From Candidatus Bathyarchaeota archaeon (GTDB lineage Archaea; Thermoproteota; Bathyarchaeia; TCS64), in assembly GCA_018396865.1 (NCBI GenBank), contig JAGTRB010000018.1:1-32171 (forward strand): a stretch of 32,171 bases of DNA, given 5' to 3'. The notes under the pieces were generated by a model that had not been told where the DNA came from, ran no database searches, and saw only the letters and a list, made by a program, of their open reading frames with translations. The translations under genes and the position numbers were made by a program. Within the stretch, counting starts at the first letter, position 1. Each line of letters opens with the position of its first letter. Shown here one piece after another: positions 6,612 to 28,215 of the stretch.

Positions 6612-7049
6612 TTAAAAATTTAACATCCTTAAACTCCTAACATAATTTGAGAAATCTCCTTTTAACCTTGAAATAAGATCCTCATCAGCAGTATACATAA
6701 AAGTATTCCTCATAACTGCGAGAGATATGTATGAAGCATCATAAATAGTTATATCATTATAAAACATTATCTCAACAGTTTTCCTAGAATATTCCCCCTT
6801 AAGAGAATATAGATCAAATGAATATGCATCTAAGGCTTCAGAGATCTCTCTCAACTCATTTTCAGAGAAGAGCTTCTTATAATATAATGCATTTAAGATT
6901 TCAAAATTGATTATTTCAGGAGCTAAAATCCTTATTTTCCCATCGATATACATATCCCTGATTTTTATAGCCTTATTAGAGTATTCCTCATCTACAAACC
7001 ATTTTACCACTACACTTGCGTCAACTATTAATTCTGGAATATCTCTCAT
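6612..7049 (-). CDS. vapC: VapC-type PIN-domain ribonuclease toxin
   Basis: 145-residue PIN domain, expected to be a Mg-dependent endoribonuclease. The four acidic positions are visible: Asp10 in LIVDASVVVKW, Glu50 in NFEILNAL, Asp104 in TIYDASYISLA, and Asp122/Asp124 in YTADEDLI. It overlaps the upstream RHH antitoxin by 29 bases, the normal VapBC arrangement. The pair is clearly more AT-rich (many AAA, ATA and AAT codons) than the flanking genes, which suggests recent acquisition. Confidence 0.9.
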   Translation of the reverse strand: MRDIPELIVDASVVVKWFVDEEYSNKAIKIRDMYIDGKIRILAPEIINFEILNALYYKKLFSENELREISEALDAYSFDLYSLKGEYSRKTVEIMFYNDITIYDASYISLAVMRNTFMYTADEDLISRLKGDFSNYVRSLRMLNF

Positions 7050-7263
7050 TTCTAAACCACCTTATTATCTCCTCAGCTTTAGCCTCTCCCTTACTTGCTC
7101 TCCTAATCCTCTCATTAATTAATATAGCCTTTGCTAAATTCTTTTTCCTCTCCTCCTCAATTTTCGTCTTTATGGCGTTCCTAATATACTCACTCCAATT
7201 TAACCTCACCTCTTTCATCATCCTCCTAGTCTCCTCATCGATCCTTATCGTAATTACAGTCAT
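7021..7263 (-). CDS. vapB: VapB-type ribbon-helix-helix antitoxin
   Basis: 80 residues. The N-terminus MTVITIRIDEETRRMMKEV gives the RHH beta strand and first helix, with NWSEYIRNAIKTKIEEE as the second helix. The C-terminal AEEIIRWFRNERYS should wrap the toxin. This C-terminal pattern (EEIIRWFRNER) recurs in the RHH antitoxin at 19213-19467 (EELVRWIREER), so the two pairs are paralogous. A strong TATA box ends about 20 nt before the ATG, so the mRNA is probably leaderless and the dimer probably represses this promoter. Confidence 0.88.
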   Translation of the reverse strand: MTVITIRIDEETRRMMKEVRLNWSEYIRNAIKTKIEEERKKNLAKAILINERIRRASKGEAKAEEIIRWFRNERYSRINS

Positions 7264-13647: not shown

Positions 13648-13668
13648 CTCGAAAAAACTTATATTTTA
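13648..13668 (+). promoter_or_regulatory. Promoter of the microprotein/retropepsin-like module
   Basis: CTCGAAAAAACTTATATTTT has an A-rich BRE followed by a TATA box centred near 13662. Transcription would start near 13689, a few bases before the TTG of the 41-residue frame at 13696, which supports that start. Confidence 0.55.
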
Positions 13669-13695
13669 TGATGCGATTCATATAACGATACTTAT

Positions 13696-13821
13696 TTGAC
13701 TAGGATTGGCAGTTTGAGCCTATTTACATACAAGCGTATCGGTAGGGTATACAGCGTAGAGGTTCTTAAGAGGATGTTAGAGGGGTCGGATAGTGCCAGT
13801 AAGGGTGAGGGTGAAAATTAA
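13696..13821 (+). CDS. 41-residue basic microprotein (RIG...RIGR motif)
   Basis: TTG-started short frame that overlaps the start of the retropepsin-like gene by 29 bases. The protein begins LTRIGSLSLFTYKRIGR, continues VYSVEVLKRMLEG, and ends in a polar tail. It is worth calling because the second, decayed copy of the module at 23690 has the same frame in the same place (LRRIGKIKSLGVHRLGR, aligned without gaps), with the same overlap onto its partner. A promoter sits at the right distance. The basic N-terminus followed by a helix could be DNA- or partner-binding, as in antitoxins, but no known fold can be named. Confidence 0.5.
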   Translation: MTRIGSLSLFTYKRIGRVYSVEVLKRMLEGSDSASKGEGEN

Positions 13822-14128
13822 GAGCCTTATGGGTCTGAACCCTGTTGCCTCCATTGAAACATGCTCACTCTTAAACACAGGGTATACGGGGGCTTCACCC
13901 GAAGTAATACTTCCAGCGAAATTAGCAGAGAAGCTGGGTTTCTGGCCTCCTCCCAACGAGTCAGTGGAATCCACGTATGACACTGCAGGAGGCCTGGCAA
14001 GGTTCTATGCCCATTTCGTCATCGGAGAGATGGGGATCATAATCTTAAATGCCTATAAGGGATTCTGGAGGTTTGAGAGCGACCCACCAGAAAGGGTTAG
14101 GCATGGAAAGAGGCCTGAATTTTGGTAG
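13793..14128 (+). CDS. Retropepsin-like (clan AA) protein with Asn in place of catalytic Asp, internally shortened
   Basis: 111 residues, GTG start inside the upstream microprotein frame. The first half follows the retropepsin pattern: beta strands, SLLNTGYTGASPEVILP (normally D-T/S-G with an Asp), then LAEKLGFWPP and ESTYDTAGG. The active-site Asp is Asn. The second half jumps from YAHFVIG straight to EMGIIILNAYKGFWRFESD, whereas the relative at 23733 has about 35 more residues at this point (ELILGDGPPIKASAYVTILP and following). So this copy seems to have an in-frame internal deletion and may be nonfunctional or reduced to a binding role. Protease activity is not expected. Confidence 0.6.
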   Translation: MPVRVRVKIKSLMGLNPVASIETCSLLNTGYTGASPEVILPAKLAEKLGFWPPPNESVESTYDTAGGLARFYAHFVIGEMGIIILNAYKGFWRFESDPPERVRHGKRPEFW

Positions 14129-17638: not shown

Positions 17639-18062
17639 GCATCTTGGAACGCTATTGCTTGGACACATACGCCATTCTAGCATTTATTGGTGGAGAGCCA
17701 GGGGCTGAGGTGGTTGAGAGAGCCTTCACAGAGGCCTTGAAAGAAGGGCTGAGATCTATATGAGCACGGTCTCCCTGGATGAGTTCGTCCTCTCAAGGGA
17801 GTTGGGAAATGAAATGGCAGACAGGAAATACCTCGAGCTTAAAACCACTGGGATTATATTCGTATCACCCGATGAGGAGACCGCTCTGCTGGCTGGGAGG
17901 CTGGAAACAAAGTACTCAAGGGAGAAAAGAACCCTTGCGCTGGCCGACGCCTACTGTCTAGCAACGGCCTTGAAGGAGGAAGCAAAGATAATCACGGGAG
18001 ACCCAGAGTTCTCCCCCGTTACAGAGTGTGAGGTTATATGGGTGGCATCCAATACCATTTGA
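17635..18062 (+). pseudogene. Frameshifted VapC PIN toxin
   Basis: From the GTG at 17635 the frame encodes the PIN N-terminus ERYCLDTYAILAFIGGEPG (Asp of the first motif present) and stops at 17763. The next frame, starting near 17758, carries the rest: YMSTVSLDEFVLSREL, ALADAYCLATALKEEA and IITGDPEFSPV, ending at 18062. Together they make one complete PIN domain of about 140 residues broken by a single-base shift near 17755-17760. The 100-residue second piece has its own ATG at 17760 but lacks the first catalytic Asp. The antitoxin upstream is also decayed, so the pair is dead. Confidence 0.75.
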
Positions 18063-18790: not shown

Positions 18791-19255
18791 TTATCGCTTT
18801 ATAGTGAAGTCTCTTAGGAGGACTATTTCGGTTATGTTTTCCCCTCTACTTTTAAGTTCATCGTCGGCTGTGATGAGCTTTGCGGCCATCCTCTTCGAGA
18901 GTTGGAGGTATGCCGAGTCGTATATGGTTAGTTTGGATGTGGTGGCTATCTCTAGGATCTCTGCTTGGTCGCCCCAGCCTATCGCAGTGATTTTGAGGCC
19001 GAGTTGTCCGAGGGCCTTCAGGGCCTCGGCTCCCTCGCTGAGGTTGATCACCCCTCGGGATATCGCCCTCGATATAACGGAGGCCACCTCGTAGGGGAGG
19101 AGGGGTGGCGCGTATGCCTCTACCTCTCCCGAGGCTATCTTCTCCATGAGGCCTCTTGCCTCAGCCTCCCAGGGCTCCCCAGGGATGATCCACTTGGCTG
19201 CTACGCTGGCGTCTATGACCACTCTAGGCCTCTCCGCCTCTCTTCCCTTATCCAC
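18791..19255 (-). CDS. vapC: VapC-type PIN-domain toxin
   Basis: 154 residues. PIN acidic residues: Asp15 in VVIDASVAAKW, Glu56 in LLPYEVASV, Asp113 in TIYDSAYLQLS and Asp131/Asp132 in LITADDELK. It overlaps the RHH antitoxin by 43 bases. The organisation and antitoxin C-terminus are the same as in the AT-rich pair at 6612-7263, but this one has the GC level of its surroundings, so it is the older or better adapted resident. Confidence 0.9.
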   Translation of the reverse strand: MDKGREAERPRVVIDASVAAKWIIPGEPWEAEARGLMEKIASGEVEAYAPPLLPYEVASVISRAISRGVINLSEGAEALKALGQLGLKITAIGWGDQAEILEIATTSKLTIYDSAYLQLSKRMAAKLITADDELKSRGENITEIVLLRDFTIKR

Positions 19256-19467
19256 CTCACAAGCTCCTCCGTAGGCACCTCGCTCGCCCTCCCACGGATC
19301 TCGTCCAAGACCCTCATCGCGTTCCTGGAGATCTCGGCCCTAACCTTTGCCTCTATGGCCCTCCTGAGGTAATCGCTCCAGTCCACGTCAACCCTCCGCA
19401 TCTGCTCCCTCAACTCCCTCGGAACCTTCACCGAGACATTGACCAGCTCACCCAAATGCCTCACCAA
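19213..19467 (-). CDS. vapB: VapB-type ribbon-helix-helix antitoxin
   Basis: 84 residues from TTG 19467 or GTG 19464. VNVSVKVPRELREQMRRVDV gives the RHH strand and first helix; DWSDYLRRAIEAKVRAEI the second helix; PTEELVRWIREERR the toxin-binding tail. The TATA box is centred about 27-30 nt upstream, so the message is probably leaderless. Confidence 0.87.
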   Translation of the reverse strand: MVRHLGELVNVSVKVPRELREQMRRVDVDWSDYLRRAIEAKVRAEISRNAMRVLDEIRGRASEVPTEELVRWIREERRRGLEWS

Positions 19468-20348: not shown

Positions 20349-21383
20349 GTGTCAAAAACGACCCTACCAAAGGGCTGGCTCCCCCTGGATGGGGACACCA
20401 TCGCAACGAGGGAGGGCTTTATATTCAACGTCTTCGGATATGAGCATCCCGAGAGCCGTGTATTCGCCTTCCTGAAGTACATCCCTTCAAAGTATAGAGA
20501 GCTCTTCAGGGTTCGCCTCCTGGGGAGAACCTGGAGGCTTGGGGAGGATGAGCTCCTCAGGGCTGAGAGGCTCTACACGGCCGAGAACTACAAGGCCTTC
20601 CTGACAACCTTCAAGGAGAATTTCCCAGATTACATCTACTACTGCCCATTTAGGATGAAAGAGGTGATCAGCGTCCCCCTAGACCGTGTAGTGGAGGTCT
20701 ACTGTCCCAGGGAGAGGCTCAGAAGCCTGTTAGAGGATGAGGCGAAGGACCCTCTCCAGAGAAGCGCCCAGGACCTGATTGAGCTGCTCTCCGAGGAGTC
20801 TAAGGTTCCCGTAGAGGATTTCGGGATCCATGGCTCCATAGCCATGAATATGCACACAGCCCAATCGGACATCGACCTAGCTGTATATGGAGGCCAGAAC
20901 TTCAGGAAGGTCGAGGCCGCTATAGATAGGCTGGCTGGAGATGGGACCCTGAACTACATCTTCAAAAACCGCCTCGATATAGCCAGGAGATACAGGGGGA
21001 GGTTTCGGGGAAGGATATTCATGTACAACGCCACCAGGAAGCCTGAGGAGATAAAATCTAGGTATGGAGAACACAGGTACATCCCCCTCTACCCCGTCAA
21101 ACTACGTTGCAGGGTCAGAGAGGACGGGGAGGCTGTCTTCCGACCCGCGACCTATGGCGTCGAGAGCATAAAGCCTCTAAACGGCTCAGCCCTCCAAAGC
21201 GGGTTGACCCCGGGGGTCGTCGTCTCCATGATGGGCTGCTATAGGAATGTGGCTAGGAGGGGCCAGGAGATAGAGGTTTCAGGGATGCTTGAGAGGGTGG
21301 AGTGCATAGAGACGGGCAGGGTTTATCATCAGGTGGTCGTGGGCTCTGCAACGAGCGAGGAGGAGTACATCTGGCCCCTCTAA
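20349..21383 (+). CDS. Nucleotidyltransferase-domain protein, first tandem copy
   Basis: 344 residues, GTG start about 25 nt after a TATA-like TTTTTTAAGAG, so leaderless. The N-terminal domain (residues about 10-115) starts DTIATREGFIFNVFGYEHP. The Pol-beta-type nucleotidyltransferase core is at about residues 150-215: DFGIHGSIAMNMHTAQSDID with the GS motif and the DxD metal ligands (SDIDLAVYGG). The C-terminal region (about 225-344) is mainly beta. This three-part layout is a known archaeal family of unassigned function; minimal nucleotidyltransferases usually transfer AMP or other NMPs to RNA or protein. The next gene is a diverged paralogue. Confidence 0.8.
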   Translation: MSKTTLPKGWLPLDGDTIATREGFIFNVFGYEHPESRVFAFLKYIPSKYRELFRVRLLGRTWRLGEDELLRAERLYTAENYKAFLTTFKENFPDYIYYCPFRMKEVISVPLDRVVEVYCPRERLRSLLEDEAKDPLQRSAQDLIELLSEESKVPVEDFGIHGSIAMNMHTAQSDIDLAVYGGQNFRKVEAAIDRLAGDGTLNYIFKNRLDIARRYRGRFRGRIFMYNATRKPEEIKSRYGEHRYIPLYPVKLRCRVREDGEAVFRPATYGVESIKPLNGSALQSGLTPGVVVSMMGCYRNVARRGQEIEVSGMLERVECIETGRVYHQVVVGSATSEEEYIWPL

Positions 21384-22459
21384 GCCTCAGGGATAGGGAT
21401 GCCATCATAACCCGGGAGGGGCTTATCTTCAGGGTTCTGGGCTATACACATCCGCAGGAGGGCTACATATGCGATCTAGAGTACGCCCCGGAAGGCGTCT
21501 ACAGATCTGAGGATTCCAGGGCATATAGGACCGAGGGGGAGAGGGTCTACTACAAGTTCTATGGGGATGAGGGGTGGGGCTTCATCCAAAGGGGGTTTCC
21601 AAGGTACATGGTCTTCCTCCAGCCCCTTGGGAGAAGGGTTCTTGGGGTGAGGGGAACCGACATCGGAGGGGTGAAGAGGCCTGAGGAGGCCCTGAGAAAA
21701 CTCCTAGAATGCGGATCCAAAGACGAGCTAACAGGAGCTCTTGAGAGGTTGATGGAGATCGTTATTGAGGGCTCGGCCATATCAGCCCAGGAGTTCGGGG
21801 TCTTCGGCTCAATCCTCCACGGCTTCTACAACCCAAGATTATCGGACCTAGATATGGTCGTGTATGGGAGGGGGACTCTGGAAAGGTTGAGAGAACTCCT
21901 TCGGGAGCTGTATATGGGTGGAGGATCGAGGCTCTCAAACGAGTTTGAGAAGGATGAATCTGTGGCTGGGAAGAATTGGCGCTTCAGAAACATAACTCCA
22001 AAAGAGTTTGTATGGCATCAAAGGAGAAAGATGATCTATGGGATATTCCACGATGAAAATGCTGGAAGGGATATAAAGTTTGAATTTGAACCAGTTAAAC
22101 TGTTCAGCGAGATAAAAAATGAGTATAATGAATTAAGGAGGGTAAAATGGGATGGGTGGGTTAGAGCCCTTCTAAGGGTTAGGGACGACTCAGAGGGCCC
22201 CTACATGCCCTCAGTATACCATGTCGAACCCTTGGAGATATTGGAAGGTCCTGAGGTCGATGATGTTGAGAAGGTGGTCTCCTACCTAGAGGAGTTCAGA
22301 ATGCAGGCCTGGAGGGATGAGGTCATATATGTGGAGGGGAACCTCGAATGGGTCGAGACGCGAGGAGGGGAATATCACCAGATTACACTAACCTATGGAC
22401 CCAGATATTATGAACAGGTCATCAAACTAGCCGAGATGGGAGCTTCCCAGACTGATTAA
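21302..22459 (+). CDS. Nucleotidyltransferase-domain protein, second tandem copy
   Basis: Paralogue of the preceding gene with the same layout: AIITREGLIFRVLGYTHP at the N-terminus, FGVFGSILHGFYNPRLSDLD plus MVVYGRG at the nucleotidyltransferase core (GS and DxD kept), and IKFEFEPVKLF in the C-terminal part. Similarity to copy 1 begins only near base 21374, at the stop codon of copy 1. The only standard start upstream is GTG at 21302, giving 385 residues and an 82-base overlap; a CTG at about 21371 is the alternative. Two paralogues fused this tightly suggest tandem duplication and a joint or heterodimeric role. Confidence 0.75.
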   Translation: MHRDGQGLSSGGRGLCNERGGVHLAPLSLRDRDAIITREGLIFRVLGYTHPQEGYICDLEYAPEGVYRSEDSRAYRTEGERVYYKFYGDEGWGFIQRGFPRYMVFLQPLGRRVLGVRGTDIGGVKRPEEALRKLLECGSKDELTGALERLMEIVIEGSAISAQEFGVFGSILHGFYNPRLSDLDMVVYGRGTLERLRELLRELYMGGGSRLSNEFEKDESVAGKNWRFRNITPKEFVWHQRRKMIYGIFHDENAGRDIKFEFEPVKLFSEIKNEYNELRRVKWDGWVRALLRVRDDSEGPYMPSVYHVEPLEILEGPEVDDVEKVVSYLEEFRMQAWRDEVIYVEGNLEWVETRGGEYHQITLTYGPRYYEQVIKLAEMGASQTD

Positions 22460-22636: not shown

Positions 22637-22885
22637 GTGGGAATGTCTATAGTAGAGGTGGATGAGAAGTATCGCATAACCCTGCCGAAGGAGGTGCGAA
22701 GGTCCCTAGTCCCGCTGAAGGGCAGGAAAGCCTATATTGTCGGAGCCGGCGACGTCGTGGTGGTGAGGATCCTCGCCTCAGACCCCTCGGAGGCCCTAAG
22801 GGAGATACTCGGGGACTTCACCTTCGACAGGAGGAGTAGGGAGGAGGCGGAGAGGTGGCTGCTGGAGCAGGTGAGGAGTACCTAG
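22637..22885 (+). CDS. vapB: AbrB/SpoVT-type antitoxin
   Basis: 82 residues from GTG 22637 (or 80 from ATG 22643). The swapped-hairpin DNA-binding motif SIVEVDEKYRITLPKEVRRS is at the N-terminus, followed by KAYIVGAGDVVVVRILASDP. The acidic/basic helix DRRSREEAERWLLEQV is the toxin-binding tail. It overlaps the PIN gene by 31 bases, as in standard VapBC pairs. Confidence 0.88.
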   Translation: MGMSIVEVDEKYRITLPKEVRRSLVPLKGRKAYIVGAGDVVVVRILASDPSEALREILGDFTFDRRSREEAERWLLEQVRST

Positions 22886-23301
22886 TAGAGACGGACTTCC
22901 TGTTTGGCCTCAGGGCTGGAGACCGTAACTTCGAGGCCGTTGTTGGAGCGCTGAGAAGATGTAAGAGCGGAGCCATCAAGCTCTCGGTCCCCTCATCCTC
23001 GGTGGTTGAAGCGAGGGCTGTATTGTACTCAAAGGGCCTAAAGCCCAATGAGGTTGAAGTGGCGCTAGGGCTGATGGGCGCCAAGCTCGCGGAGAACGAC
23101 GTCATGGACTTCATCCAGATCGAGCTTGCTGACGCGGTCTATGCTGAGAGGCTCAGGATCGAGAACCCAAACCTCGGCTTCTTCGACTCCCTCCACGCGG
23201 CCGCTGCGGCGAGGAGGGGGAAACTCCTGCTGACCTCTAACAAGGCTTACAAAGGGATAACAAGCCTCAAGGTCAGGGATCTCAGCGATTTTATTCCTTA
23301 G
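22855..23301 (+). CDS. vapC: VapC-type PIN-domain toxin
   Basis: 148 residues from GTG 22855. The PIN motifs are Asp14 in YLVETDFLFGL, Glu52 in SSSVVEARAVL and Asp111 in GFFDSLHAAAAA. The last acidic position is weak: the segment LLLTSNKAYKGIT has Asn129 where an Asp is usual. Activity may therefore be reduced, though some PIN proteins tolerate this. It follows the AbrB antitoxin with an overlap. Confidence 0.85.
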   Translation: MAAGAGEEYLVETDFLFGLRAGDRNFEAVVGALRRCKSGAIKLSVPSSSVVEARAVLYSKGLKPNEVEVALGLMGAKLAENDVMDFIQIELADAVYAERLRIENPNLGFFDSLHAAAAARRGKLLLTSNKAYKGITSLKVRDLSDFIP

Positions 23302-23689: not shown

Positions 23690-23773
23690 TTGAGGCGGAT
23701 TGGGAAGATTAAGAGCCTTGGAGTGCATAGGCTTGGCCGTAAGGGTGAGGCTGAGGATAGGGTCCGGGAATAG
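23690..23773 (+). pseudogene. Second copy of the microprotein frame (shortened)
   Basis: TTG-started 27-residue frame starting LRRIGKIKSLGVHRLGR and continuing KGEAEDRVRE. The first 17 residues align without gaps with those of the 41-residue protein at 13696 (nine identities or conservative changes around the two RIG/RLG cores), but the helix VYSVEVLKRMLEG is missing. It overlaps the retropepsin-like relic start by 41 bases. It is probably inactive. Confidence 0.45.
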
Positions 23774-24157
23774 GGAGGCTCTCTTCTCCGCCTTGGTAAA
23801 TAGTGGATTTGAGGCTGATGAGCCCCAGCTCATCCTCCCATATCGCTTAGCTGGGGTTCTCGGCCTATCCTAAGCGGGAGCTAGTATTGAGGATTTCAGC
23901 ACGGCCGGTGGTGGAAGGGTCTCGGGCTACCGGTTATATGAACCCCTCGAGGTTGAGCTGATTTTGGGCGATGGGCCTCCCATTAAAGCCTCAGCATATG
24001 TGACGATCCTTCCAGGTGAGAACGAGGCCATAATGAGTGACCACCTAGCCTCCCAGCTGGGAATAATCATCCTAGACCCATACAGGGGGACTGGTGCCTC
24101 ACCAACGAGCTAGTAGTTAGGAGGAGGCCCACGGCAAAGCCTGAAGAATGGAGGTAG
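23733..24157 (+). pseudogene. Decayed retropepsin-like (clan AA) gene, full-length version
   Basis: From TTG 23733: AVRVRLRIGSGNREALF, ALVNSGFEADEPQLILPYRL, a TAA after GVLGLS, then ASIEDFSTAGGG, EVELILGDGPPIKASAYVTI, ASQLGIIILDPYRG, then a frameshift to DWCLTNELVVRRRPTAKPEE. One internal stop and one frameshift kill the gene. It keeps the central part missing from the 13793 gene, and shows the same Asn for Asp in the active-site motif (NSG). The match in gene order and motif identifies both as one family. Confidence 0.65.
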
Positions 24158-24324: not shown

Positions 24325-24338
24325 TCATTATAATTTTG

Positions 24339-24593
24339 ATGGTGTTCTATTTGGCCATCGAGGCTAAGGTTAGGAGAATAGGGACGAGCCTAGGCATTAT
24401 AATTCCCAAGGAGAGGCTCGAGGAGTTAGGGGTTGGGGAGGGGGATGTGATTGTGATCCCTAGGATTGAGAAGCCGGTGAAGAATGTGAGAGGGATCTTA
24501 AGAGGAAGGGGCTTCGCTTTTGAAAGGGAGAAACCAGATAGGGAGGAAGATATCGAAGCCGCGTTAAGAGAATCTAGAGGTCTGAAAAGGTGA
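24339..24593 (+). CDS. vapB: AbrB/SpoVT-type antitoxin
   Basis: 84 residues from ATG 24339 (TTG 24336 and TTG 24351 are in frame). The swapped-hairpin motif AIEAKVRRIGTSLGIIIPKE is clear and is followed by ELGVGEGDVIVIPRIEKPV. The C-terminal REEDIEAALRESRGLKR is the expected toxin-wrapping segment. It is four bases from the PIN gene. Confidence 0.88.
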   Translation: MVFYLAIEAKVRRIGTSLGIIIPKERLEELGVGEGDVIVIPRIEKPVKNVRGILRGRGFAFEREKPDREEDIEAALRESRGLKR

Positions 24594-24597
24594 ATGG

Positions 24598-25011
24598 ATG
24601 GAGGGCCAGGCTGGTCGAGTGGTGGTGTTCGACGCTTATGCATGGTGTGAGTATGTAGTAGATGGACCTCACGCCGAGACCGTCGCTCAAGCCCTGCAAT
24701 CCGCTTATCAAGCCCTGACCCCAGCCTCAGCACTGGCAGAGGTTAGGGAAGCTCTAGAGAGGCATCAAGTTGAGCCCAGTGTAATCAAGGATATAATGGA
24801 GTTTATCAGGGCTAGAAGCCAAGTGGTGAACATAGATGTCGATGTGGCAGAGAAGGCTGGAGAGGTTAACTTTCAGATGAAGAAGAGGGCCAAGGGCTGG
24901 GGTATGCTCGATTCCTTTGTCTACGCTGTGGCCCTCTTAAAAAAGGGGTGGGTTTTAACAGGTGACACCCACTTCAGGGATTTAGCCAACGTCATCTACA
25001 TCGGAGAGTGA
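24598..25011 (+). CDS. vapC: VapC-type PIN-domain toxin
   Basis: 137 residues, ATG with AAAAGGTGA just upstream. PIN residues: Asp12 in VVVFDAYAWCEY, Glu48 in SALAEVREAL, Asp105 in GWGMLDSFVYAVAL, Asp123 in VLTGDTHFRDL. All four are kept. Directly follows its AbrB antitoxin. Confidence 0.9.
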   Translation: MEGQAGRVVVFDAYAWCEYVVDGPHAETVAQALQSAYQALTPASALAEVREALERHQVEPSVIKDIMEFIRARSQVVNIDVDVAEKAGEVNFQMKKRAKGWGMLDSFVYAVALLKKGWVLTGDTHFRDLANVIYIGE

Positions 25012-25558: not shown

Positions 25559-25639
25559 AGGAGAGATTCTTCGCCCTCTATGGGGGGTTCTCCATCCTCT
25601 AATCGGTTTCTGGCTTTGGAATGCTTGAGGGGTGATCGC

Positions 25640-25654
25640 TATAAGGTTTATATC
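25640..25654 (+). promoter_or_regulatory. Promoter of VapB/VapC pair
   Basis: TATAAGGTTTATATCG is a TATA box centred near 25650. Start would fall at about 25676, three bases before the GTG at 25679, supporting that start over the long upstream extension. Confidence 0.5.
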
Positions 25655-25678
25655 GCTGAGCCAGTATATCGTTGTATA

Positions 25679-25915
25679 GTGATATCTTTGAAAAGATATG
25701 CAACGATATCTGTCCCACTAGAGGTTAAGAGGCTCCTGGAGAGGGTTAAGGGGGGAGAGGAGTGGGGCGACTTCCTCCTGAACCTTTACAATGAGGTTCA
25801 AAGGCTGAGGGGTGAGAGGGCGTTCCAGGAGTTGGCGGGCATGCTGACTGAGAAGGACCTGAGGAGCATCCTTGAGTCGAGCAGGGAGTTCAGGGAGGGG
25901 TTCAGGCTCGGATGA
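25679..25915 (+). CDS. vapB: VAPB-family antitoxin
   Basis: 78 residues from GTG 25679. VISLKRYATISVPLEVKRLL is the N-terminal strand and helix, and GGEEWGDFLLNLYNEVQRLR the second helix, the pattern of the archaeal VAPB antitoxin family (PF02697-like). The tail EKDLRSILESSREFREGF binds toxin. The frame extends further upstream, but the TATA position excludes it. Its TGA overlaps the toxin ATG (ATGA). Confidence 0.8.
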   Translation: MISLKRYATISVPLEVKRLLERVKGGEEWGDFLLNLYNEVQRLRGERAFQELAGMLTEKDLRSILESSREFREGFRLG

Positions 25916-26256
25916 GCATCCTAGACACCGATGTGATAATAGAGATGTTGAGGGAGAAGAGGCATGTGGAGGGAGCCATCTCGATCATAACCCTCATAGA
26001 GTTCCTGAGAGGACTGGAAAAAGAGAAGAGGGCTAGGGCCAAGAGGTTGTTGGAGGAGAGCTTCAAAATATTAAACCTTGATAACGAGGTTATAGAGATC
26101 TACTGTACCCTATACCAGAGACTGAGAGAGATGGGCAGCCCAATACCGGACGCCGATCTGCTCATAGCTGCGACAGCCATCTCCCACCGCAAAGCCCTGA
26201 AGACGAGGGACGAAGATTTTGAAAGGTTGAAACCCTTAGGCCTAGAGCTGGCATAA
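25912..26256 (+). CDS. vapC: VapC-type PIN-domain toxin
   Basis: 114 residues, small PIN domain. Asp5 and Asp7 in ILDTDVIIEML, Glu30 in TLIEFLRGLE, Asp80/Asp82 in GSPIPDADLLIAA and Asp100/Asp102 in LKTRDEDFERL. All catalytic positions are kept. ATGA overlap with the antitoxin implies translational coupling. Confidence 0.92.
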   Translation: MSILDTDVIIEMLREKRHVEGAISIITLIEFLRGLEKEKRARAKRLLEESFKILNLDNEVIEIYCTLYQRLREMGSPIPDADLLIAATAISHRKALKTRDEDFERLKPLGLELA

Positions 26257-26735: not shown

Positions 26736-27164
26736 TTAAAGTTGCATTAATTTCAAGTCTGGGTTTATGCTTCTTATGTCCTCTTCCTTGAAGGCCTCTA
26801 CTATCCTCCTGTCTATTGTTGCTATGCCTTCACAGTGATGGAGGGCCGTTGATAATATTATGGAGTCTAGGAGGTCGGTTAGAACCCTCCTTATCCTGGC
26901 TGCTGACTCCATGACTCTCCTGTCGGTGATGGGGATCCTCTCTAGGTTGTAGTAGGCAGCCTCCACCCCCTCAACCAGGTCTTCGATGGATATGAGGCCA
27001 TCCAAAAGATACTTAGCCCCCTTCGCGTAGAGCTCAAAGATCTGGGCCTCGCTTATGATTATCTCATGCTCCCTTAGGGCTCTTCTTATAGCTTCCTCGC
27101 TAACCTCTCTAACCTTGATCTTGATGAGGGGCATCAGGTATGTTGTGTCAAGGAGGAGCCTCAC
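26736..27164 (-). CDS. vapC: VapC-type PIN-domain toxin
   Basis: About 142 residues from GTG 27164, which has CTTGAGG upstream and starts directly at the PIN strand VRLLLDTTYLMP. Acidic positions: Asp of LLLDTTY, Glu of IISEAQIFEL, Asp of LTDLLDSIILST, and Asp of GIATIDRRIVEA. An in-frame start eight codons earlier exists. Overlaps the AbrB antitoxin by about 17 bases. Confidence 0.85.
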   Translation of the reverse strand: MRLLLDTTYLMPLIKIKVREVSEEAIRRALREHEIIISEAQIFELYAKGAKYLLDGLISIEDLVEGVEAAYYNLERIPITDRRVMESAARIRRVLTDLLDSIILSTALHHCEGIATIDRRIVEAFKEEDIRSINPDLKLMQL

Positions 27165-27390
27165 CCTCAAGCCTCCTTGAGATTTCACCCCTCAGCCTCA
27201 GGTCCTCCTCCAAGCTTATCTCGACCTTAGGCTTTCTGGACAAGGCCTCATCAAGTCTTAGGGGCTTCCATAGGATCAGCTGGTCCCCCCTTACCTCAGC
27301 GAGGAGCCTATCTCCTGGCTTCAGGCCGAGCCTCTCCCGCAACTCCTTAGGCGTATAGATCTCGCCCTTCCGACCAATCAGAATCTCCAA
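27148..27390 (-). CDS. vapB: AbrB/SpoVT-type antitoxin
   Basis: 80 residues, TTG start. EILIGRKGEIYTPKELRERL is the swapped hairpin, followed by GLKPGDRLLAEVRGDQLIL. The tail ISLEEDLRLRGEISRRLEGE binds toxin. Probably leaderless from a TATA-like CTTTAAAG about 35 bases upstream. Confidence 0.85.
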   Translation of the reverse strand: MEILIGRKGEIYTPKELRERLGLKPGDRLLAEVRGDQLILWKPLRLDEALSRKPKVEISLEEDLRLRGEISRRLEGEAPP

Positions 27391-27575: not shown

Positions 27576-27845
27576 ATGGTTGAGCGGAGTGTTGTCATAC
27601 CTGCGGTGAGGATCCCCCGCGAACTCTGGCTCTACTTGGAGGAGATTATGAAGAGGAAGATGTTCTCCTCTAAGGCTGAGCTTGTGAAGGATGCTCTAAG
27701 GGAGTATGTCGCCCGGAACCGGGAACTCCTACACGACTTTGAGATCCTCTCCGCGACCGTCGAGCTCAAGAAGGGGAGGCTTGAGGATGAGGAGAGGGAG
27801 AGAAGGTTGCTCGAGTGGCTTAGGGAGCTACGCTCTGGACACTAG
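27576..27845 (+). CDS. vapB: Ribbon-helix-helix antitoxin
   Basis: 89 residues. SVVIPAVRIPRELWLYLEEI gives the strand and first helix; MFSSKAELVKDALREYVARN the second helix with the RHH turn. The tail contains a long charged helix (KKGRLEDEERERRLLEWLRE). It overlaps the toxin frame by about 59 bases. Confidence 0.85.
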   Translation: MVERSVVIPAVRIPRELWLYLEEIMKRKMFSSKAELVKDALREYVARNRELLHDFEILSATVELKKGRLEDEERERRLLEWLRELRSGH

Positions 27846-28215
27846 TGTCCTCCTCCATCATCGCTACGCGCCGAGCGATTTGACCGAGGCTCTGATAAGT
27901 TCGGGCATCATCAACCTTGTCACCCTATCCGAGGTCCTCTACATCGTATGCAGGGGCGAGGATTCCTCCAAGGCTCTCTCATATGTGGAAGAGCTGGCTG
28001 AGAAGGGCAGGCTGGCTCCTTCTGAGAGGGTGGCCCCGGTGGCTGGACAGTTCAAGTGCCGCTTCCCAGTCTCGTTGGCTGACGCCTGGGTTCTCGCCAC
28101 GGGTAAGGTTATGGCTCTCCCCTGCCTCTTCGCCCATAGGGAGAGGGAGCTCGTCTCGCATATCACAGCTATTGGCAGGGAGGTGGAGGTGCGCTTTCTC
28201 GACGAACTCCTCTGA
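27787..28215 (+). CDS. vapC: VapC-type PIN-domain toxin
   Basis: 142 residues from ATG 27787, inside the antitoxin frame (an earlier in-frame ATG at 27706 would give 169 residues). PIN motifs: Asp in SYALDTSVLLHH, Glu in VTLSEVLYIVCR, Asp in PVSLADAWVLATG. The fourth position reads LFAHRERELVS, with His/Glu where Asp is usual. The start is uncertain; the PIN fold begins only at residue about 14 of this call. Confidence 0.82.
   Translation: MRRGREGCSSGLGSYALDTSVLLHHRYAPSDLTEALISSGIINLVTLSEVLYIVCRGEDSSKALSYVEELAEKGRLAPSERVAPVAGQFKCRFPVSLADAWVLATGKVMALPCLFAHRERELVSHITAIGREVEVRFLDELL

Follow-up and report, generated by a model that had tools for sequence, protein, structure and literature searches.

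A degraded pair of microprotein and retropepsin-like genes in a Bathyarchaeota contig, with intact relatives across the Thermoproteota

The sequence analysed here, referred to as the window, is a stretch of 32,171 nt from a Candidatus Bathyarchaeota archaeon (GCA_018396865.1, contig JAGTRB010000018.1, positions 1 to 32,171). On its forward strand, positions 13696–13821 form an open frame of 41 residues with a TTG start, and translation of this frame agrees with the RIG...RIGR microprotein described in an initial annotation of the same DNA. Translation and the family alignment place two tandem strand motifs within it, RIGSL at 13702–13716 and RIGRV at 13735–13749, the second lying 11 codons past the first, and a spacing of 10–11 codons is the most frequent one among the 139 two-motif loci of the family presented below. 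The microprotein frame runs for exactly 29 bases (13793–13821), as previously claimed, into a retropepsin-like gene on the same strand that was recognized by profile and tblastn matches, starts with GTG and encodes 111 residues (13793–14128). An Asn codon at 13874–13876 (LLNTG) occupies the catalytic-Asp position of this gene, which is an invariant column of the alignment. The TATA box that had been assigned to the microprotein corresponds to a TATA-like element at 13659–13669 (+ strand, TTATATTTTAT), 27–37 nt 5′ of the TTG, and its position implies that a leaderless or nearly leaderless transcript would begin at the microprotein. DNA alignment with the nearest relatives, L054 (genome G216) and L045 (genome G248), reveals that both keep the microprotein along with its TTG start, and that both have a TTTATA-type counterpart of the TATA-like element at the equivalent place. 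The same alignment reveals that the retropepsin-like gene of the window has lost 105 nt in frame, equal to 35 residues of the fold, with the deletion junction at 14009–14012.

A second pair in the same order and on the same strand was reported previously as decayed, and inspection of the three-frame translation bears this out. The microprotein frame of copy 2 (23690–23773; locus L005 or L026) is open over 27 residues and carries RIGKI and RLGRK motifs 11 codons apart, and translation and profile matches identify its partner (23733–24157) as a pseudogene, interrupted by an in-frame TAA at 23871 and frameshifted further on. What the initial annotation had not recognized is that the first copy is degraded as well, so that neither copy in the window is an intact module. 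Intact modules are found elsewhere in the same 1.83-Mb genome, at G000:C1:73814 (L002) and G000:C3:104005 (L003). The window also contains about seven VapBC-like pairs with varied antitoxin types within 22 kb (6612–7263, 18791–19467, 22637–23301, 24336–25011, 25580–26256, 26736–27390 and 27576–28215), for six of which the PIN domains were confirmed. A further PIN-domain frame at 17760–18062 matches the Pfam model over its C-terminal two thirds only and is probably a truncated VapC. Next to the VapBC cluster are two related genes that overlap each other (20349–21383 and 21302–22459) and carry nucleotidyltransferase-like GSI...D.D motifs.

How general is the upstream microprotein? Among 169 distinct family genes with enough upstream sequence, 139 are preceded by an open reading frame with two copies of the motif [R/K/F][I/V]G[H/R][I/M], compared with none in a reverse-strand control and three in Markov shuffles, which rules out a chance origin of the pattern. 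When frames with a single motif or a variant of it are included, an upstream frame precedes all 149 full-length genes examined, although in one of these (L137) only a truncated motif frame is kept and the gene's own C-terminus is frameshifted. The two frames overlap at 125 of the 139 two-motif loci and are free of overlap at the other 14, and a single frame relation between the genes is common to 120 of the 139. The product of the first gene is a cationic microprotein of ~25–45 residues consisting of two tandem short β-strand motifs, and it is basic (net charge +7) where its partner is acidic (−3). In one subfamily (L057, L061, L143 and L147), an acidic two-repeat peptide (LLTLMEEEDLLLTLV) replaces the basic RIG motif; the retropepsin-like proteins that follow this acidic repeat are those with AIANSGF[VI]G.EPE (L057:1501, L061:715, L143:4408 and L147:4948, minus strand). 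In general, microprotein subfamilies track those of the retropepsin-like protein, and pairwise distances of the two partners correlate (Mantel r 0.66, with none of 2000 permutations as high), as would be expected for any two linked and co-inherited genes. Two sister species differ in the number of near-identical 30-nt units encoding a RIGHIYPLRR repeat, with two copies in one and three in the other (L009, G001:C15; L010, G002:C83), and the sequences indicate a recent coding tandem-repeat expansion. Natural in-frame fusion of the microprotein to the retropepsin-like domain was observed in the single case of L021, a truncated pseudogene.

The microprotein frame is protein-coding and under purifying selection. 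For 51 independent pairs, and restricted to the region outside the gene overlap, dN/dS of the microprotein core equals 0.15 (bootstrap 0.12–0.20), as opposed to 2.10 and 1.41 in the other two frames, and codons outside the search motif yield 0.32 (0.23–0.43). Differences are distributed over the three codon positions as 132, 117 and 375, and synonymous Arg and Gly codons are used. Absence or interruption of the frame in most relatives, or a lack of codon constraint, had been named beforehand as results that would speak against the microprotein; the frame is instead found in nearly all relatives and is clearly constrained. The layout of the module suggests how both proteins may be expressed. 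TATA-like matches, counted for 63 ATG-started microproteins, fall at −40 to −26 in 32 of 62 instances, and a Shine–Dalgarno-like motif situated inside the microprotein frame precedes 119 of 139 retropepsin-like starts, compared with 28 of 168 random upstream 13-mers. These features suggest a leaderless or short-leader message in which the microprotein comes first and the start of the retropepsin-like gene is reached from within the microprotein frame, and co-transcription of the pair would follow from this layout and the TATA position.

The second gene is predicted to encode a single-domain retropepsin-fold protein. The AlphaFold2 model of the intact paralogue L002, built from an 85-sequence alignment, has a mean pLDDT of 95.4, and when the PDB was searched with this model by Foldseek, the top matches were all HIV-1 protease (best E 1.9e-6, with a TM-score of 0.71 on the target) and 232 matches fell below 0.001, so the clan AA or retropepsin-like label given earlier stands. 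A search of PDB sequences with the family profile gave no match, and the fold was recognized only through structure. L002 and L003 have no Pfam or NCBIfam match; weak matches to TIGR03698, a clan AA aspartic protease family, occur in 14 of 85 members (best E 3e-6), are lacking for L002, L003 and the window copy, and reach the curated cut-off in none of 61 relatives. At the catalytic-Asp position, 166 of 171 members have Asn, three have Ser, one has Glu and one has Asp, and the D[ST]G catalytic signature of clan AA aspartic peptidases does not describe the family. Substitution of Asn for the catalytic Asp indicates that the partner is probably not a protease. The one relative seen with a catalytic Asp (IADSGF) is a partial copy at L175:8163–8330 (plus strand).

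Within the class, the retropepsin-like family profile detects members in 19 of 257 genomes; across the Thermoproteota it does so in 96 of the 398 genomes sampled. A single genome can have as many as 13 matches, and fragments are numerous. Named carriers include Caldivirga sp. MU80, Vulcanisaeta distributa, Desulfurococcales, Pyrodictiaceae, Thermofilum, Methanodesulfokora and Bathyarchaeota, mostly thermophiles, and because at least two carriers are other than metagenome bins, a binning artefact is excluded. Two modules were also observed on a contig labelled bacterial (L146, QNBE01000004.1, from a WOR-3 bacterium bin), which is probably misbinned archaeal DNA and would otherwise represent transfer to bacteria. 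Searches of IMG/VR and of phage and plasmid collections gave no relatives at the sensitivity used, and a viral or plasmid origin was set aside on this basis.

The initial annotation had proposed that the two genes move and are selected as a unit, and the evidence agrees that the pair is one unit. A microprotein profile returned 27 matches in 16 of 20 family-bearing genomes, all 27 directly adjoining a retropepsin-like gene (four of these placements were confirmed only by reading the locus, and some neighbours are frameshifted), and no matches in 15 genomes without the family; taken with the overlap and upstream-frame counts given above, co-occurrence and overlap of the pair are as had been anticipated. 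In addition, the module L002 is an insertion of ~580 bp relative to the sister species G001 and G002, which are collinear on both sides and carry no module. The insertion, which adjoins a methyltransferase gene, starts 5′ of the TATA box and ends near the stop of the retropepsin-like gene, and no evident target-site duplication was found there. Together with the purifying selection described above, these observations establish an obligately linked, conserved, protein-coding pair that moved as a unit in at least one case. Beside the empty site, G001 and G002 have a catalytic clan AA gene (DSG, TIGR03698-like; L249:2189–2485, minus strand, and L250), and G000 retains DNA of ~72–73% identity at that place. 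In the empty-site comparison for the window copy, its flanking genes were not present in the sister genomes.

Where might the microprotein motif come from? TIGR03698-like DTG or DSG relatives in the same genomes have no upstream two-motif frame, apart from one spurious match. These catalytic relatives start with segments that resemble the microprotein, such as MGHIWVKVRV, LGHVWVKVKI, VGHIYVEAV, MGYVRVRGT and SLGFIRVKF, which can be summarised as M/L-G-H-I/V-W/Y-V. The motif match lies ~22–26 residues before the Asp, whereas the Asn family begins at about −22, so that the segment falls just ahead of the point at which the dead protein starts. When scored with a matrix built from microprotein motifs only, the N-terminal zones of the catalytic relatives rank above N-termini of unrelated neighbouring proteins (p 7.6e-5), above internal windows of those neighbours (3.4e-6) and above internal windows of the Asn-bearing family (3.6e-8), with the reservation that a strong match (score >7.5) is found in only 7 of 25 catalytic relatives and the rest match loosely or not at all. 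The corresponding region of HIV protease is its N-terminal dimer-interface strand.

The window locus is best read as a decayed copy of a mobile cassette of two genes that is widespread in Thermoproteota. We hypothesize that the microprotein of this cassette is a detached and duplicated N-terminal strand that now acts in trans, a reading to which we give slightly less than an even chance. An N-terminal strand, probably of the dimer interface, would have separated from an ancestral retropepsin-like protein, and the usual frame relation of the two genes fits a split by ancestral frameshift. Duplication of the strand would then have generated the two-motif microprotein, which would act in trans with one copy of the motif for each protomer of a dimer. 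Supply of the strand in trans is suggested by the resemblance of the motif to the segment with which catalytic relatives begin and by homology to HIV protease. The two products would form one complex, and that complex may be a peptide-dependent binding protein. The opposite net charges of the partners fit this reading, whereas the loose or absent match in most catalytic relatives and the subfamily with an acidic repeat in place of the RIG motif count against it. The broader claim is that such cassettes make up a hitherto unrecognised class of mobile archaeal module, possibly for addiction or defence, in which a tandem-duplicated microprotein takes the place of the N-terminal dimerisation strand of a dead retropepsin and thereby completes it; we consider this rather less likely than not.

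Other explanations of the microprotein are to be weighed against this one. One alternative hypothesis makes it a pseudo-substrate or inhibitor seated in the dead retropepsin's peptide cleft, much as substrate peptides sit in HIV-1 protease D25N, the retropepsin-like protein being a binder that sequesters peptides. The Foldseek matches include an inactive D25N HIV-1 protease in complex with a peptide, the partners are oppositely charged and the motifs have an extended hydrophobic-Gly-basic character, all of which suit a cleft ligand; however, the motif is closer to the segment at the N-terminus of catalytic relatives than to unrelated sequence, which favours the strand position. In a monomer read-through model of L120, with stops modelled as Gly and sequences unpaired, AlphaFold2 left the microprotein unplaced (pLDDT 34–47) beside a confident domain, and a model of this kind says little for or against binding. 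We judge the cleft hypothesis quite unlikely. Could the upstream frame instead be no more than a leader that serves the retropepsin-like gene by translational coupling or as a control element in DNA or RNA? Its start just 3′ of TATA elements and the Shine–Dalgarno-like motifs inside it would fit such a role, but the codon analysis rules out a DNA or RNA element in place of a protein, amino-acid conservation is strong and frame-specific with synonymous Arg and Gly codons in use, versions without overlap exist in other frames and there is no Rfam match near the window copy, which leaves the leader hypothesis highly improbable. A last proposal concerns the Asn itself, which might be a latent catalytic residue that deamidates to Asp in hot surroundings and slowly generates an active protease. 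Deamidation of Asn-Ser and Asn-Gly is established chemistry, nearly all members read N-[S/T/A/G]-G and the named members are mostly from hot habitats; nevertheless, the Asn-Thr found in 27 of 149 is slow to deamidate, and the position is conserved as Asn and not as a mixture of Asp and Asn, so that we regard deamidation as barely credible.

Does the pair act as a toxin–antitoxin module, in which one partner curbs growth unless it is bound and neutralised by the other? If so, the toxin would more probably be the retropepsin-like protein, with the microprotein as its antitoxin. The small overlapping two-gene operon, its patchy spread in many decayed copies and the insertion of a full module as a unit at L002 are all consistent with such a function, and two features of type II systems, namely two small linked genes and mobility with patchy multicopy spread, are present. 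Moreover, 13 short or broken retropepsin-like genes retain an intact microprotein, and the reverse is seen for one of 149 full-length genes (L137), but with gene length taken into account this asymmetry is not significant, and contig ends may explain some of the short copies. The loss of the catalytic residue also argues against a toxin, and we know of no toxic activity for the retropepsin fold, which counts further against it. Antitoxins are often orphaned, whereas here neither gene occurs alone. Searches of Pfam, NCBIfam and PADLOC gave the family no significant match to a domain of toxins or antitoxins, and the lack of any PADLOC match tells against the function. The initial annotation had also placed the pair in or near a VapBC island, and this holds for the window, which has many VapBC pairs with copy 2 among them, but not for the module in general: 148 proteins neighbouring other modules fall into 121 Pfam families, led by PaREP1 (5) and HEPN (4), with no PIN family in the top 25. 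A general linkage to VapBC is therefore not supported by this census, and the VapBC cluster of the window, while real, looks incidental to the module. On balance, a toxin–antitoxin function is considered unlikely, though it stays in contention.

To the extent covered by domain libraries and the open-access literature, no description of such a pair was found, and a cassette of a microprotein and a dead retropepsin has apparently never been described. A 2009 survey of type II systems does not mention an aspartyl protease pair (PMC2701414). If the reading of a dead retropepsin completed by a separately encoded strand is correct, it describes a system of two genes, multicopy and phylum-wide, of which one falls below annotation size while the other encodes a classic drug-target fold that has lost its active site. 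Such a system would offer a testable case of a homodimer interface strand turned into a separate gene and would add a new candidate to the mobile addiction or defence modules of archaea. Among known proteins, the single-domain prokaryotic clan AA aspartic protease of TIGR03698 (clan_AA_DTGF) is alike in fold class and length, whereas the module protein has Asn in place of the catalytic Asp and is missing the N-terminal segment, which is apparently encoded by the microprotein. HIV-1 protease and the retropepsins (MEROPS family A2) share the fold, but the module protein has no catalytic Asp, is not part of a polyprotein, has a microprotein partner and is longer (139 versus 99 residues). VapBC and other type II toxin–antitoxin systems are likewise small, overlapping, mobile and multicopy two-gene operons of archaea, whereas the module has no PIN, RHH or AbrB domain. 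MNT-HEPN systems resemble the module in that they, too, are mobile cassettes of two genes and are plentiful in thermophilic archaea (PMC2701414), but their folds are unrelated to those of the module, and HEPN is only an occasional neighbour of it.
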